A DNA stretch of 49,589 bases from an uncultured Gammaproteobacteria bacterium (GTDB lineage: Bacteria > Pseudomonadota > Gammaproteobacteria > JAADHQ01): contig CAMYJD010000027.1 in assembly GCA_947258655.1 (NCBI GenBank), positions 1 through 49,589 of the forward strand. Direction: 5' to 3'. The notes beneath the pieces were generated by a model, which saw nothing but the letters and a program-made list of their open reading frames with translations, did no database searches and was not told the origin of the DNA. How positions within the stretch are numbered: the first letter of the stretch is position 1; every line of letters starts with the position of its first letter. The translations under genes were made by a program, and so were the position numbers. Positions 2,168-47,592 of this stretch are shown here, one piece after another.

Positions 2168-5071
2168 ATGAGCACACCCAAGCCGATACATGACCCGATC
2201 AAACAGCCCGACAGCGAGCGTATCGAGGTCAAAAACACCACCTGTTATATGTGCGCATGCCGCTGCGGTATTCGCGTAACCCTGCGCGATGGCGAAGTTC
2301 GCTACATCCAGGGTAATCCTGACCACCCCCTGAACAAGGGCATCATCTGCGCCAAGGGCTCTTCCGGCATCATGAAGCAGTATTCGCCGGCACGACTGAC
2401 CAAGCCCCTGCGTCGCAAAGCGGGCGCCGATCGTGGTGATAATGAATTCGAGGAAATCAGCTGGGATGAAGCCTTCTCGATCATGGAAGAGCGCATGGTC
2501 AAGCTGCGCAAGACCGATCCGAAGAAATTCGCAATGTTTACCGGCCGCGACCAGATGCAGGCCATGACCGGTCTGTTTGCCAAACAGTATGGCACACCAA
2601 ACTATGCCGCCCACGGCGGTTTCTGCTCGGTCAATATGGCCGCCGGTATGATCTACACAATCGGTGGATCATTCTGGGAGTTCGGCGGTCCGGACCTGGA
2701 ACGCTCCAAACTGTTCGTCATGATCGGCACCGCTGAGGACCATCACTCCAATCCACTGAAGATGGAGCTATCCAAGTTCAAGCGCCAGGGTGGCAAGTTT
2801 ATTTCGATCAACCCGGTGCGTACCGGTTACTCGGCCATTGCCGACGAATGGATCCCTATCAAGCCCGGCACCGATGCTGCACTGTTGATGGCCCTGAACC
2901 ATGAAATCATCAAGACCGGACTGTATGACCGTGATTTCCTGGTCGAATACAGTAACTCGGCCGAACTGATCAACATGGATGAAAACAGCACCGAATACGG
3001 CATGTTTGTCCGTGCCGAGGTGCCTGAAGAAGAAGGTTGCTTTGACCCGCAAAACAAGCTGTGGTGGGACCGTGCAACCGATCAGGCCATCGTCGCCAGA
3101 CGGGATATTGATCATGACCCGTACCTGCTCGGTGAATATGCACTGAAAGATGGCACACCGGTCAAGACGGCATTCCAGATGTTGCACGAGCGTCTGGAAG
3201 AATACACCCCGGAATGGGCCGAGAACATTACCGGCATCCCGGCCAGCACGATTCGTCGCCTGGCCCATGAAATGGGTATCACCGCACGAGATGAAAAAAT
3301 CGAATTGCCAATCGCCTGGACCGATGTCTGGGGCCGTGAGCACAATACCGTCACCGGCAACCCGGTCTCGTTCCATGCGATGCGTGGCCTGGCCGCACAT
3401 TCAAACGGCTTTCATACCATCCGCGCACTGTCTATATTAATGAGTCTGCTCGGTACCATCGACCGCCCCGGCGGCTTCCGTCACAAGGCACCATTCCCGC
3501 GTCCGATCCCACCGTGTGCCAAGACACCGAAGGGACCGGAAGATGTTAAACCGGAAACGCCGTTGAATGGTATGCCATTGGGCTGGCCGGCCGACCCCGA
3601 CGACCTGTTTGTCGATGACAAGGGTGAGCCGGTACGCCTGGACAAGGCATTCTCGTGGGAATTTCCGCTGTCCGTCCACGGCATGATGCACAATGCGATC
3701 ACCAATGCCTGGCGTGGCGACCCGTACCCGATCGACACGCTGTTGATTTTCATGGCCAACATGGCCTGGAACTCGACCATGAACACCGAACAGGTGCGCA
3801 ACATGCTCAACGACAAGGATGAAAACGGTGAATATAAGATCCCATACCTGATTGTCTGCGATGCGTTCCAGTCGGAAATGGTGGCGTATGCGGATCTGGT
3901 CCTGCCAGATACGACCTATCTTGAGCGTCACGACGTCATGTCGATGCTCGACCGTCCGATCTCCGAATACGATGGCCCGGTGGACTCTGTGCGCGTGCCG
4001 GTACTGCCACCGACGGGCGAGTGCAAGCCGTTCCAGGAAGTATTGCTGGAGCTGGGTACACGCTTGAAGCTGCCGGCTTTCATCAAGGAAGATGGCACAC
4101 GCAAGTTCCGTAATTACCCGGACTTTGTCGTCAATTTTGAAACTGAACCGGGCTCCGGCATCGGCTTCCTGTCCGGTTGGCGCGGCAAAGGCGGTGAAAA
4201 ATTCATGAAGGGCGAACCGAATCCGAACCAGTGGGAAATGTACGAAAAGAACAATTGCGTGTTTCATTACGAACTACCGCGATCGTTCCAGTACATGCGC
4301 AACTGGAACAAGGGTTACCTGGAATGGGCGCAGGAACATCGCCTGACGCGTTATGCTGAACCGATCAATATCCATATCTATTCAGAAGTGCTACAGAAGT
4401 TCCGCATGGCCGCACAAGGCAAGACCGACGGCAAACAGCCACCGGATCACTTACGCAAACGCGTCGAGACCTATTTCGATCCGTTACCGTTCTATTATGA
4501 GCCGCTCGAAGCGCAGCTCAGCGACAAACACAAGTACCCGCTCAATGCGATCACCCAGCGACCGATGGCCATGTACCATTCATGGGACTCCCAGAATGCC
4601 TGGTTACGTCAGATTCACACCTATAACTATTTATATGTGAACCCGGTCACTGCCAATGCTCAGGGGATCGACGACGGCGAATGGCTGTGGGTCGAATCCC
4701 AATGGGGCAAGGTGCGCTGTATATGCCGTTATTCCGAAGCACTGGAACCCGGCACAGTATGGACCTGGAACGCAATAGGCAAGGCTAGTGGTGCCTGGGG
4801 ACTGGAAGCGAATGCGAATGAATCCAAGCAGGGCTTCCTGCTCAATCACGTGATTTCGGAAGAATTGCCTGCTCACGACGCCGGCGAGCATGTCTCCAAC
4901 TCTGACCCGGTTACCGGCCAGGCCGGCTGGTATGACGTGCGCGTACGTATCTACAAGGTCGGCGCGCATGAGAAGCATGTCACGTCACCACAGTTTGATG
5001 CGGTCAATCCGGTACCCGGACAGCCACAGCGTAAGTCATGGCTGGGCTGGTTTGCCGGGGGTAAAAAGTAG
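2168..5071 (+). CDS. soeA: Sulfite-oxidising enzyme SoeA, molybdopterin catalytic subunit
   Basis: This 967-residue protein belongs to the DMSO reductase family of molybdopterin oxidoreductases. The N-terminus has no Tat signal and carries a [4Fe-4S] motif, C26-x2-C29-x3-C33-x27-C61, followed by the molybdopterin oxidoreductase domain; a molybdopterin-dinucleotide-binding domain occupies the last ~170 residues. Absence of a signal peptide, the length, and the following four-cluster ferredoxin and NrfD/DmsC-like membrane subunit fit SoeABC, which oxidises sulfite to sulfate in the cytoplasm and reduces quinone. Related polysulfide/thiosulfate reductases are the alternative; those catalytic subunits are exported, which argues against them. 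The ribosome site is weak (AGG 12 nt upstream). The TAG stop is part of the first 7-nt unit of a palindromic repeat. Confidence 0.87.
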   Translation: MSTPKPIHDPIKQPDSERIEVKNTTCYMCACRCGIRVTLRDGEVRYIQGNPDHPLNKGIICAKGSSGIMKQYSPARLTKPLRRKAGADRGDNEFEEISWDEAFSIMEERMVKLRKTDPKKFAMFTGRDQMQAMTGLFAKQYGTPNYAAHGGFCSVNMAAGMIYTIGGSFWEFGGPDLERSKLFVMIGTAEDHHSNPLKMELSKFKRQGGKFISINPVRTGYSAIADEWIPIKPGTDAALLMALNHEIIKTGLYDRDFLVEYSNSAELINMDENSTEYGMFVRAEVPEEEGCFDPQNKLWWDRATDQAIVARRDIDHDPYLLGEYALKDGTPVKTAFQMLHERLEEYTPEWAENITGIPASTIRRLAHEMGITARDEKIELPIAWTDVWGREHNTVTGNPVSFHAMRGLAAHSNGFHTIRALSILMSLLGTIDRPGGFRHKAPFPRPIPPCAKTPKGPEDVKPETPLNGMPLGWPADPDDLFVDDKGEPVRLDKAFSWEFPLSVHGMMHNAITNAWRGDPYPIDTLLIFMANMAWNSTMNTEQVRNMLNDKDENGEYKIPYLIVCDAFQSEMVAYADLVLPDTTYLERHDVMSMLDRPISEYDGPVDSVRVPVLPPTGECKPFQEVLLELGTRLKLPAFIKEDGTRKFRNYPDFVVNFETEPGSGIGFLSGWRGKGGEKFMKGEPNPNQWEMYEKNNCVFHYELPRSFQYMRNWNKGYLEWAQEHRLTRYAEPINIHIYSEVLQKFRMAAQGKTDGKQPPDHLRKRVETYFDPLPFYYEPLEAQLSDKHKYPLNAITQRPMAMYHSWDSQNAWLRQIHTYNYLYVNPVTANAQGIDDGEWLWVESQWGKVRCICRYSEALEPGTVWTWNAIGKASGAWGLEANANESKQGFLLNHVISEELPAHDAGEHVSNSDPVTGQAGWYDVRVRIYKVGAHEKHVTSPQFDAVNPVPGQPQRKSWLGWFAGGKK

Positions 5072-5138
5072 CGAGTAGCGAGTGGCTAGTAGCGAGGAAA
5101 AAGAAAAACCTCGCTACTCGCCACTAGCCACTAGCCAC
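5068..5138. repeat. Heptamer-arm palindrome 1 (between soeA and soeB)
   Basis: The left arm (5068-5097) is four 7-nt units of consensus GTRGCKA followed by GG. The right arm (5109-5138) is CC followed by four complementary units, so the pair can fold with an 11-nt A-rich loop. The arms pair with several mismatches because units vary at positions 3 and 6. The soeA stop codon TAG (5069-5071) lies inside the first unit. The same architecture recurs at 5919-6070, 25348-25429 and, as a lone arm, at 47559-47588. Confidence 0.8.
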
Positions 5139-5178
5139 TTCTTTATAGCGCTAAGAAAGTTAAATTGAGTATTAAAAT

Positions 5179-5917: not shown

Positions 5918-5918
5918 A

Positions 5919-6070
5919 GTAGCGAGTGGCGAGTAGCGAGTTGCTAGGAAAAGCTTATGCCACTACACATTTTTAATTTAGTTGTATCCGTTTGCGTAAA
6001 AGCAATCGGAAATATTTGCAAAAGCGAGCAAGCCGGTCTTCCTAGCTACCAGCTACTCGCAACTAGCTAC
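5919..6070. repeat. Heptamer-arm palindrome 2 (between soeB and soeC)
   Basis: The left arm (5919-5948) and right arm (6041-6070) each hold four 7-nt units related to GTNGCKA plus a terminal GG (CC on the right). A 92-nt AT-rich centre without a visible gene separates them. The soeC ribosome site GGAG (6072-6075) starts right after the right arm, so folding could affect soeC translation. Confidence 0.8.
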
Positions 6071-6081
6071 TGGAGTTAACC

Positions 6082-13853: not shown

Positions 13854-15065
13854 TTATTTCTTTTTAACTACCGTTTTTTTTAGCAGGCGTTTTTTTCCTG
13901 GCCACTGATTTCTTGCTAACAGTCTTTTTCTTTGCAGCTGTCTTTTTAGCGGGCGCCTTCTTCCTGGCCACTGATTTCTTGCTAACAGTCTTTTTCTTTG
14001 CAGCTGTCTTTTTAGCGGGCGCCTTCTTCCTGGCCACTGATTTCTTGCTGGCCGTCTTTTTCTTGGCAGCTGTCTTTTTAGCAGGCGCCTTTTTCCTGGC
14101 CACTGATTTCTTGCTGCCTTTTTCCTGGCCACTGATTTCTTGCTGACAGTCTTTTTCTTTGCAGCTGTCTTTTTAGCAGGCGCCTTTTTCCTGGCCACTG
14201 ATTTCTTGCTGACGGTTTTTTTCTTTGCAGCTGTCTTTTTAGCAGGCGCCTTCTTCGTCGCCGTTTTAGTCACGGCTTTTTTCGTTGTTTCCTTTTTATC
14301 TTCCGCTTCGGGCCTGGTCTTTGCCGGTTGTTCTTCCGTTTGGGCCTCCTGCGCCTTGTTCAAAATCATTTGCTCCAGGGCTTCTACCGTCGGCATGGCT
14401 ATCTCTTCAGCATTATCTTCAATATCATCAAGCAGATGTGAAACAGCCGCAAAAATATCCTCTACCTCACCGATTCCCTGTACAACACGCAGTTTGCCCT
14501 GTTCCTTGTAAAAATCGATAACCGGTGTGATCTGCATTTGATACAGGCGATAGCGATTACTGATGATCTCTTCGTTCTCATCAGCCCGTTGACGGAGGTT
14601 ACCGCCGCATTCATCACACTGACCATCCATTTTTGGCGGTTCAGTAAAAATATTATGTATATGGCCGCATGAACCACAGGTGCGTCTACCGGTAATGCGC
14701 TGCATCAATGCATCAAAATCTGTTTCCAGCAGCACTGCCATGTGTAACGGTCTGCCCATCAGTTGCAACAGCTGATCGAGCGTCTGTGCCTGGGTGATAT
14801 TTTCGGGATAACCATCGAGGATGAAGCCTTTGCTCGCATCATGACGTGACAACCTTTCACGAAGGATATTGACCAATAACTCATCCGGAACCACATTGCC
14901 TTGTCCCTGGATAGCCCTGGCCTGCAATCCCAGCGGTGTGCCTTCCGCGATCGCGTCACGTAGCAACTCCCCTGCAGCTATCTGCGGGATTGCATATTTT
15001 TCTTCTACCTGACGGGCCTGGGTACTCTTACCGGACCCGGGAGCGCCGAACAGAACCACCCTCAT
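13854..15065 (-). CDS. adk: Adenylate kinase with a polycationic repeat tail that switches frame
   Basis: The first ~215 residues are a complete long-form adenylate kinase (2 ADP = ATP + AMP): P-loop GAPGSGKST, DGYPENITQAQ, and a LID with a four-cysteine zinc site (CGSCG...CDECG). A further ~190 residues follow: an acidic linker, then histone-H1-like 22-residue repeats of the type KKAPAKKTAAKKK. The repeats are 66 bp long, but one is cut to 29 bp at 14102-14130, so the frame changes inside the array. The frame then reads RNQWPGRR/LLKRQ-type repeats, still very basic, to a stop at 13854. Without the shift, translation would end at 13864 in KKTPAKKNGS. The catalytic core is unaffected. The tail may bind nucleic acid or polyphosphate; that is a guess. 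Confidence 0.88.
   Translation of the reverse strand: MRVVLFGAPGSGKSTQARQVEEKYAIPQIAAGELLRDAIAEGTPLGLQARAIQGQGNVVPDELLVNILRERLSRHDASKGFILDGYPENITQAQTLDQLLQLMGRPLHMAVLLETDFDALMQRITGRRTCGSCGHIHNIFTEPPKMDGQCDECGGNLRQRADENEEIISNRYRLYQMQITPVIDFYKEQGKLRVVQGIGEVEDIFAAVSHLLDDIEDNAEEIAMPTVEALEQMILNKAQEAQTEEQPAKTRPEAEDKKETTKKAVTKTATKKAPAKKTAAKKKTVSKKSVARKKAPAKKTAAKKKTVSKKSVARKKAARNQWPGKRRLLKRQLPRKRRPARNQWPGRRRPLKRQLQRKRLLARNQWPGRRRPLKRQLQRKRLLARNQWPGKKRLLKKTVVKKK
13904..14262. repeat. 66-bp tandem repeat in adk, with one 29-bp remnant unit
   Basis: The marker ACTGATTTCTTGCT starts at 13904, 13970, 14036, 14102, 14131 and 14197: spacings of 66, 66, 66, 29 and 66. A 37-bp loss in one unit is not a multiple of three and causes the frame switch in the Adk tail. 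Confidence 0.9.
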
Positions 15066-20209: not shown

Positions 20210-20749
20210 ATGATGATTTGCATACTCTCCGACAGTCACGACAATCTGCGCCTGCTCGAGGCCGCGATTGCCGACAGCAAGCGCCGCGGCGCGGAGGCCG
20301 TCGTACATTGTGGTGATGTAGTCGCCCCGAGTACCTTGAAGGTCACCAGGCGCTATGAACTGCCCGTACATGTCATTCACGGCAACAATACCGGTGACCA
20401 GTTCACGCTGCACCGTATGGCAGAAAAATCCGGTGGTCAATTGTCCTATTACGGCCAGGATGCAGGGATAGAATTAGGGGGACGCAAAATCTTTATTGTC
20501 CATTACCCACATTATGCCGAGGCCATGGCCACGACTGGCGAATGGGACATGGTCTGCTGCGGCCATGACCACTTGATCCGGGTCGAATGGCTCGACAATA
20601 TCAAGGGCGGTAAAACCGTTCTGGTCAACCCGGGCACCGTCGCCGGTATCGGCGCGCCGGCCACCTATATCATGGGCGACCTGGATAAAATGGAATTCGA
20701 GGCCATTGAACTGGATATGGCTGATATATTAACTGCAGGGGAAAGGTAA
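20210..20749 (+). CDS. Metallophosphoesterase, YfcE/MJ0936 type
   Basis: The 179-residue protein has the calcineurin-like metal-binding set of the small phosphodiesterases: SDSHDN near the start, HCGDVV, HGNNTG, and CGHDH with a later NPGT. It is cytoplasmic. Members hydrolyse phosphodiesters in vitro; the physiological substrate is usually unknown. The start could be either of two adjacent ATG codons (20210 or 20213). The stop codon TAA lies inside the first units of a palindromic repeat. Confidence 0.88.
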   Translation: MMICILSDSHDNLRLLEAAIADSKRRGAEAVVHCGDVVAPSTLKVTRRYELPVHVIHGNNTGDQFTLHRMAEKSGGQLSYYGQDAGIELGGRKIFIVHYPHYAEAMATTGEWDMVCCGHDHLIRVEWLDNIKGGKTVLVNPGTVAGIGAPATYIMGDLDKMEFEAIELDMADILTAGER

Positions 20750-20853
20750 AAGGGTAAAGATACAAGGGAATGCCGCTCGGCCAGGGCCGACCACTGTTGA
20801 TATATGAGGCAGGCATTAGCCCACTCTACCCCTTTACCCTTTTATCTTTTCTC
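20738..20853. repeat. Heptamer-arm palindrome, second sequence type
   Basis: The left arm (20738-20768) is four 7-nt units of the kind GGGTAAA/GGTAAAA followed by GGG. The right arm (20826-20853) is four complementary 7-nt units. The unit sequence differs from the soe/moa copies, but the plan (four heptamers per arm, facing arms) is the same. The left arm overlaps the phosphoesterase stop and the right arm ends 5 nt before the stop of yjbQ. Confidence 0.7.
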
Positions 20854-20858
20854 TGCCT

Positions 20859-21281
20859 TTAATCCGCTACCGTGATACTGATAGAGCGTCGATGCCCGTG
20901 GGTACGATGCTCCCACAGGTAAATACCCTGCCATGTGCCGAGATCACAACGGCCGTGCTGGACCGGAATCGTTAGCCCTGTGCTGGTCAATATCGTTCTA
21001 ATATGCGCAGGCATATCATCTGGCCCTTCATCGATATGCTCGAACAGCGGATCACCATCGGGTACCAGCCGCGCCATAAAGCGGTCAAGATCTGCTCGTA
21101 CTGTAGGATCTGCATTTTCACACAACATCAACGATGCACTGGTGTGATGCACGAACACATGACAAAGGCCCTGCTCCACATTGCTTTGTGCTACCACCTG
21201 CTGTACTTCACGGGTGGCATCGTAGCTTCCGCGACCACGCGTGTTTATATTTATTTTTTGCTGATACATAAAACCTGTCAA
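20859..21281 (-). CDS. yjbQ: YjbQ-family protein (UPF0047)
   Basis: The 140-residue product has the conserved YjbQ core: VFVHHTSASLMLCENADPTV, then PDGDPLFEH...DDMPAHIRT, and C-terminal GRCDLGTWQGIYLWEHR. Members show weak thiamine-phosphate-synthase-like activity. The true start may be the second Met (about 21269, MYQQK), since family members start near there. It is encoded toward the phosphoesterase gene across a palindromic repeat. thiC is elsewhere in the window. Confidence 0.9.
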   Translation of the reverse strand: MTGFMYQQKININTRGRGSYDATREVQQVVAQSNVEQGLCHVFVHHTSASLMLCENADPTVRADLDRFMARLVPDGDPLFEHIDEGPDDMPAHIRTILTSTGLTIPVQHGRCDLGTWQGIYLWEHRTHGHRRSISITVAD

Positions 21282-25343: not shown

Positions 25344-25347
25344 ATCA

Positions 25348-25429
25348 GTAGCGAGTGGCTAGTTGCGAGGTTAAATACGTCCAAGCATTTTGCGATTTTT
25401 CTAGCCACTCGCTACTAGCCACTAGCTAC
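25348..25429. repeat. Heptamer-arm palindrome 3 (after moaE)
   Basis: The left arm (25348-25370) has three GTNGCKA-type units plus GG. The right arm (25401-25429) has C plus four complementary units. It sits 4 nt after the moaE stop, between two convergent genes, so here it could also act in transcription end formation. Confidence 0.8.
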
Positions 25430-25501
25430 TTATATTTGCGGTAAAAATTTTATGCTCATGAGCAATAATAACCATAAGCTCAACGAACAATCACAGCCAC
25501 A

Positions 25502-47558: not shown

Positions 47559-47588
47559 CCTCGCGACTCGCGACAAGCCACTCGCTAC
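47559..47588 (-). repeat. Single heptamer arm
   Basis: Read on the minus strand it holds four 7-nt units (GTAGCGA, GTGGCTT, GTCGCGA, GTCGCGA) and GG, the same plan as the soe and moa copies. No facing partner arm was found next to it. Confidence 0.75.
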
Positions 47589-47592
47589 TTTT

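Follow-up and report, generated by a model that had tools for sequence, protein, structure and literature searches.

Facing heptad arrays at gene ends in an uncultured gammaproteobacterium: a dispersed family of candidate gene-boundary sites

Between two converging genes in the window (the whole 49,589-nt stretch of DNA analysed here), two short arrays of degenerate 7-nt units face each other at 20738-20853, so that the site resembles a palindrome. The question raised by this locus is whether such an arrangement exceeds chance and, if so, how it arises and is kept. The sequence-only reading had counted four units in each arm, and this can be read out directly, with the right arm's innermost unit (GGGGTAG) being degenerate. 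The site is composed of the following features:

20210 to 20749, plus strand: left gene, YfcE-like metallophosphoesterase (PF12850, 1.1e-29)
20727 to 20737, plus strand: left outer boundary, TATTAACTGCA, matching the family boundary wTTAAAGGCA that precedes the first G of an arm
20738 to 20772, plus strand: left arm, read from the sequence as heptads GGGGAAA GGTAAAA GGGTAAA GATACAA, then a closing GGGAATG
20769 to 20817, no strand: inter-arm region holding a small hairpin (AATGCC 20769-20774 pairing with GGCATT 20812-20817; TCGGCC with GGCCGA around 20777-20790)
20826 to 20853, minus strand: right arm, read from the sequence from 20853 down to 20826 as GAGAAAA GATAAAA GGGTAAA GGGGTAG
20854 to 20864, minus strand: right outer boundary, ATTAAAGGCA on the minus strand, holding the stop TAA (20859-20861) of the UPF0047 gene
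20859 to 21281, minus strand: right gene, UPF0047/YjbQ-like (PF01894, 1.5e-40)

The left gene's stop TAA (20747-20749) falls within the second heptad, GGTAAAA, and the left arm therefore overlaps the gene end; on the other side, five bases separate the UPF0047 stop codon from the first right-arm heptad. Left-arm heptads 2-4 fit the degenerate unit GRKWMAA at every position, and heptad 1 fits it at 6/7. The stretches 20728-20759 and 20832-20863 are complementary at 84% over 32 nt, and single-strand folding of the site gives z = -4.8 relative to shuffles, with 0/200 shuffles folding as well. The period itself is less decisive. Over the best 21 comparisons, the left arm matches at 13/21 and the right arm at 15/21; arrays reaching 13/21 number 55 in 450 kb of the genome versus 63-82 in locally shuffled DNA, whereas those reaching 15/21 number 16 versus 0-4. 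Taken alone, the period of the left arm is thus at chance level and that of the right arm exceeds it. A search of the window against Rfam returned zero matches.

The site rises above chance because its unit is shared by a family dispersed through the source genome (G000). Searching for three consecutive AGRKWMA units with at most one mismatch, we found 42+59 genome places, versus 2+0 with a reversed control pattern; the possibility of a unique site with a single unit sequence, which the sequence-only reading had raised against its own proposal, is contradicted by these numbers and by the several units described below. We read 49 GRKWMAA arms from about 21-25 stretches of the source genome. They span 3-8 heptads (5 units in 21 arms, 4 units in 17, 3 units in 7), frequently end in GGGAA[TG]G, and are built most often from GATACAA, GATAAAA, GGGAAAA and GGGTAAA. 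Each starts with G directly behind a boundary near TTAAAGGCA, where 94% of arms have A at -1 and 86% have C at -2. The same pattern also matches three genomes of the genus and is nearly absent in 33 other genomes of the class. When 84,980 species genomes were scanned, Thioalkalivibrio denitrificans and T. sulfidiphilus showed the same kind of arm with the same boundary, and several further gammaproteobacterial genomes had related arms. Many of the matches outside Proteobacteria looked on inspection like ordinary GATAAAAGGG...CCCTTTTATC hairpins lacking heptads, and these were not counted. The window site is therefore real, yet it is convincing only as a member of this family.

Similarly organised arrays exist with other letters. 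The GTNGCKA unit occurs at 62+61 genome places versus 0+0 in the control, and an unbiased scan of 450 kb, which delimits our search for further units, revealed period 7 in excess over periods 8, 10, 11 and 13 and yielded a third, small family with the unit AAGTCKT. Representative arms are located as follows:

Window 5067-5139, 5918-6071, 25347-25430 and 47562-47589: GTNGCKA arms
L089 9394-9520 (G000:C3 about 109394-109520): AAGTCKT family, immediately after a TGA stop, with an inverted partner opposite
G000:C30:17476-17517: AAGTCKT family, starting directly behind a TGA stop

All three families show tandem heptads, a facing partner at at least some loci and arms at stop codons, in agreement with the earlier proposal of one plan realised with several unit sequences in one genome. 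The accompanying statement that the unit has nothing in common with GTNGCKA holds approximately, with the reservation that GRKWMAA and GTNGCKA can both be phased as AG-N5, perhaps by coincidence. Several window arms of the GTNGCKA family start no more than 7 nt from a stop codon; in the one at 5067, TAG within the heptad serves as the stop. The left arm of the AAGTCKT element at C3 contains a perfect (TTTGGTC)n run. Elsewhere in the window, tandem 66-bp repeats lie at 13877-14256 within a 403-aa reading frame on the minus strand (13854-15065).

Placement relative to genes is far from random. Arms start at a stop codon in 27/49 cases for GRKWMAA and 20/31 for GTNGCKA, compared with a fraction of about 0.09-0.19 for random positions, and the typical distance from stop to arm in the GRKWMAA set is 4-10 nt. 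Among neighbouring arm pairs less than 450 nt apart, 63 are facing and 5 back to back, with 25 of the 63 facing pairs stemming from loci that had been retrieved with a facing pattern. Since each arm reads away from its gene, convergent genes yield facing arms; where two genes follow one another in tandem, the second arm runs antisense to the downstream gene. We also considered whether the arms close all three reading frames with stops and rejected this candidate, as closure was found in 12% of GRKWMAA arms versus 13% of letter shuffles, and in 48% of GTNGCKA arms versus 56% expected from unit composition.

How these arms behave over evolutionary time was followed by a close comparison of three genomes of the genus. 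In the sister species (G003), the arm is present at 31/37 arms with a mappable outer flank, versus 2.8% for random stretches, and in the more distant G001 it is present at 9/22, versus 1.3%. A substitution-only model would leave 15-56% of arms at 65-80% identity. Between orthologous arms, the fixed positions (G1, A6 and A7) are 98% identical, a figure inflated because arms are recognised by pattern and those of G003 were found with that pattern too, a bias towards fixed positions; the variable positions are 61% identical, versus 51% for shuffled pairs. The flanking gene ends align where orthologous arms differ in their unit letters. Comparing related genomes for arm turnover, as had been suggested from the sequence alone, thus revealed variable bases that have turned over around fixed positions that were kept. 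In addition, lone arms of G000 have lone-arm counterparts next to the same genes in G003 (L032/L116, L042/L129, L049/L147, L050/L155), and because lone arms remain lone, it is the arm rather than the hairpin that looks like the conserved unit. Altogether, these comparisons indicate that the arms have mostly been inherited in place from an ancestor common with the sister species.

The window site illustrates both retention and loss. In G003 its right arm is present with other units (GGGGAAA GGTAAAA GATAAAA GGGGAAA GGGTGGA), the left arm is absent, and the yfcE- and yjbQ-like genes are separated by a 3-kb stretch with an 867-aa reading frame (L107 2466-5069, G003:C16); the pair is therefore not conserved at this site. 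In G001 neither arm is present. Many other sites likewise have no arm in G001, which shows that arms are dispensable.

Presence in one species and absence in another, together with many dispersed copies, is also what would be expected of old, decaying non-autonomous mobile elements (MITE- or REP-like) lodged at gene ends, whose heptads would be remnants of transposase-binding ends. REP/BIME elements, like the arms here, lie between genes at 3' ends as inverted pairs; they are characterised by a GTAG-type palindrome and a RAYT transposase and contain no heptads. The GRKWMAA arms carry no GTAG-type REP palindrome, and REP-like sequences are separate from them, nested within arms in G003. At six G003 loci (L112, L135, L137, L145, L149, L156), GRKWMAA arms surround two paired REP-like sequences (TGTGGGAGCGGCCCTTGGCCGCGA ...), and inside these, at most of the loci, GTNGCKA arms face each other. 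A single copy of the REP-like sequence was present in 450 kb of G000. This nesting and the presence of Y1_Tnp (PF01797) genes in 4/4 genomes fit a mobile origin, although we found no link between the Y1_Tnp genes and the arms. MITEs are recognised by terminal inverted repeats, a target site duplication and recent copies that are nearly identical. Against a mobile origin, no near-identical copies were seen in the examined loci, no target duplication was recognised and no transposase was found between such arms; clean empty sites or target duplications could not be read across the sister genomes, whose flanks are too diverged. Moreover, arms mostly stay in place while their unit sequences diverge, and two convergent genes often each have an arm flush with them, which is unexpected from one insertion. 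We regard a mobile origin as quite unlikely.

The template- or repeat-copying process that had been proposed to generate the arms found no support. The likeness of facing arms is 0.705, versus 0.685 between arms of different elements (p 0.08), and duplex energies computed with an arm's own partner and with a swapped partner hardly differ in G000 (-31.3 versus -31.1; -29.6 versus -28.5 in G003), so we rejected arm-to-arm copying. Tandem duplication as a recent source was rejected as well, given that adjacent heptads of one arm resemble each other less than position-matched shuffles do (0.457 versus 0.505). Facing arms no closer to each other than to arms of other elements, together with dissimilar neighbours, imply that the palindrome is not maintained by copying between arms and that the array is not fresh slippage.

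The same likeness values bear on another account, in which polymerase slippage or functionless drift of purine-rich, low-complexity DNA produces the arrays. Long homogeneous heptad or 14-mer runs do occur in the sister genomes, at G001:C60:39646-39729, G002:C52:23385-23489, and G001:C24 and C40, with units (AGATAAA)n at C60, (AGATTAA)n at C52 (23385-23482) and (AGATACAAGGGGAA)n, and these runs indicate that some arms expand by slippage. As a general explanation, slippage or drift is nevertheless very unlikely, since adjacent heptads are too dissimilar, the excess is confined to period 7 among the periods compared, arm retention far exceeds the substitution-only model, and orientation relative to genes is fixed.

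The duplex energies, in turn, bear on whether the arms act as RNA, forming 3'-end hairpins similar to those of REP/BIME in which the purine arm behind a stop pairs with the pyrimidine arm, and which would protect mRNA ends, aid termination or act on terminating ribosomes. Arm-pair duplexes near -31 kcal/mol, compared with -16 for letter-shuffled arms, the location of most arms just past stop codons, and the GC-rich inner hairpin enclosed by many arm pairs are all consistent with this account. However, an arm's own partner is no better than a foreign one in G000, lone arms are kept as lone arms, and at the window site no consensus intrinsic terminator (GC-rich stem, then T run) was found. Furthermore, with the second arm antisense between tandem genes, a double-stranded reading suits the two arms better than a reading as RNA. 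We therefore consider RNA hairpins possible but rather unlikely.

The layout itself has been published. Rehm et al. (2015) described heptamers GGGAATC in Xanthomonas campestris/citri and GGGGA(C/T)T in Nostoc, in arrays of mostly four units, with convergent opposite-strand pairs (70 in Xcc and 75 in Xac), lying on the coding strand behind stop codons, which they may overlap; the two Xanthomonas species carry them at the same genes, where length and sequence vary (PMC4692102). The GRKWMAA arms resemble them in being degenerate tandem 7-nt units in many dispersed copies and convergent pairs, in lying close behind stops on the coding strand, and in recurring between the same two genes of related species while their sequence varies. 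What is new here are the unit sequences, whereas the layout was known from Xanthomonas and Nostoc; the arm-against-arm tests and the conservation of lone arms come from the present analysis and go beyond that report (PMC4692102). Rehm et al. could assign no role to the heptamers and tentatively considered G-quadruplexes (PMC4692102). Identical anatomy would recommend the same explanation here, but four GGG tracts with loops of 1-11 occur in 0/49 GRKWMAA arms of G000, 0/40 of G003 and 0/21 of Thioalkalivibrio, and in 0/31 GTNGCKA arms. With 0/141 arms carrying four closely spaced GGG tracts, a quadruplex cannot explain the plan in these two families; as judged from their sequences, this reading is largely refuted and its probability is minimal. 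The arms thus differ from the Rehm heptamers in their unit letters, in having no quadruplex-capable arms and in comprising several unit families within one genome.

Two further systems share parts of the plan. In Geobacter metallireducens, putative global regulator binding sites of classes 1-3 are built from units of 7 or 8 nt in tandem (five heptanucleotides, MTYCTGA, in class 3), occur mostly as opposite-strand pairs with variable spacing and are proposed to bind a regulator (PMC2700814). As here, several paired repeat families coexist in one genome, with different unit sequences; the main text and captions of that report do not mention a position at stop codons (PMC2700814). In marine Beggiatoaceae, TAACTGA repeats, two to six per set, mostly precede start codons by a few nucleotides, with only one inverted set (MacGregor 2015, PMC4679880). 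These are likewise multicopy intergenic heptamers of gammaproteobacteria; unlike the facing arms, they are direct repeats with a single unit sequence.

The family, the position and orientation of its arms, the retention of fixed positions and the turnover of variable ones are direct observations. To account for them, we tentatively favour vertically inherited gene-boundary sites whose heptads would most likely be bound in register by a putative protein. Each arm would then be a separate sequence of ~30-35 bp, with G1, A6 and A7 recurring every 7 bp and positions 2-5 drawn from a narrow alphabet, placed flush with a gene end and reading outward into intergenic space; two converging genes would each bring an arm, hence the "palindrome". 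The protein, with several subunits side by side, would bind the double-stranded heptads in register, and the bound arms would mark or insulate transcription-unit boundaries. Both the protein binding and this boundary role are what we infer from the arrangement of the arms.

If this holds more widely, facing heptad arrays may be a general class of bacterial gene-boundary sites, in which co-resident "dialects" (GRKWMAA, GTNGCKA and AAGTCKT) would each have their own oligomeric partner protein, with period and orientation as the conserved code and unit letters as the address; we consider this generalisation speculative and improbable as it stands. Several families in one genome share one plan, one strand rule and placement at gene ends with units that are not quadruplex-capable, which shows that facing heptamers do not have the quadruplex as their common cause and shifts attention to the 7-bp register.
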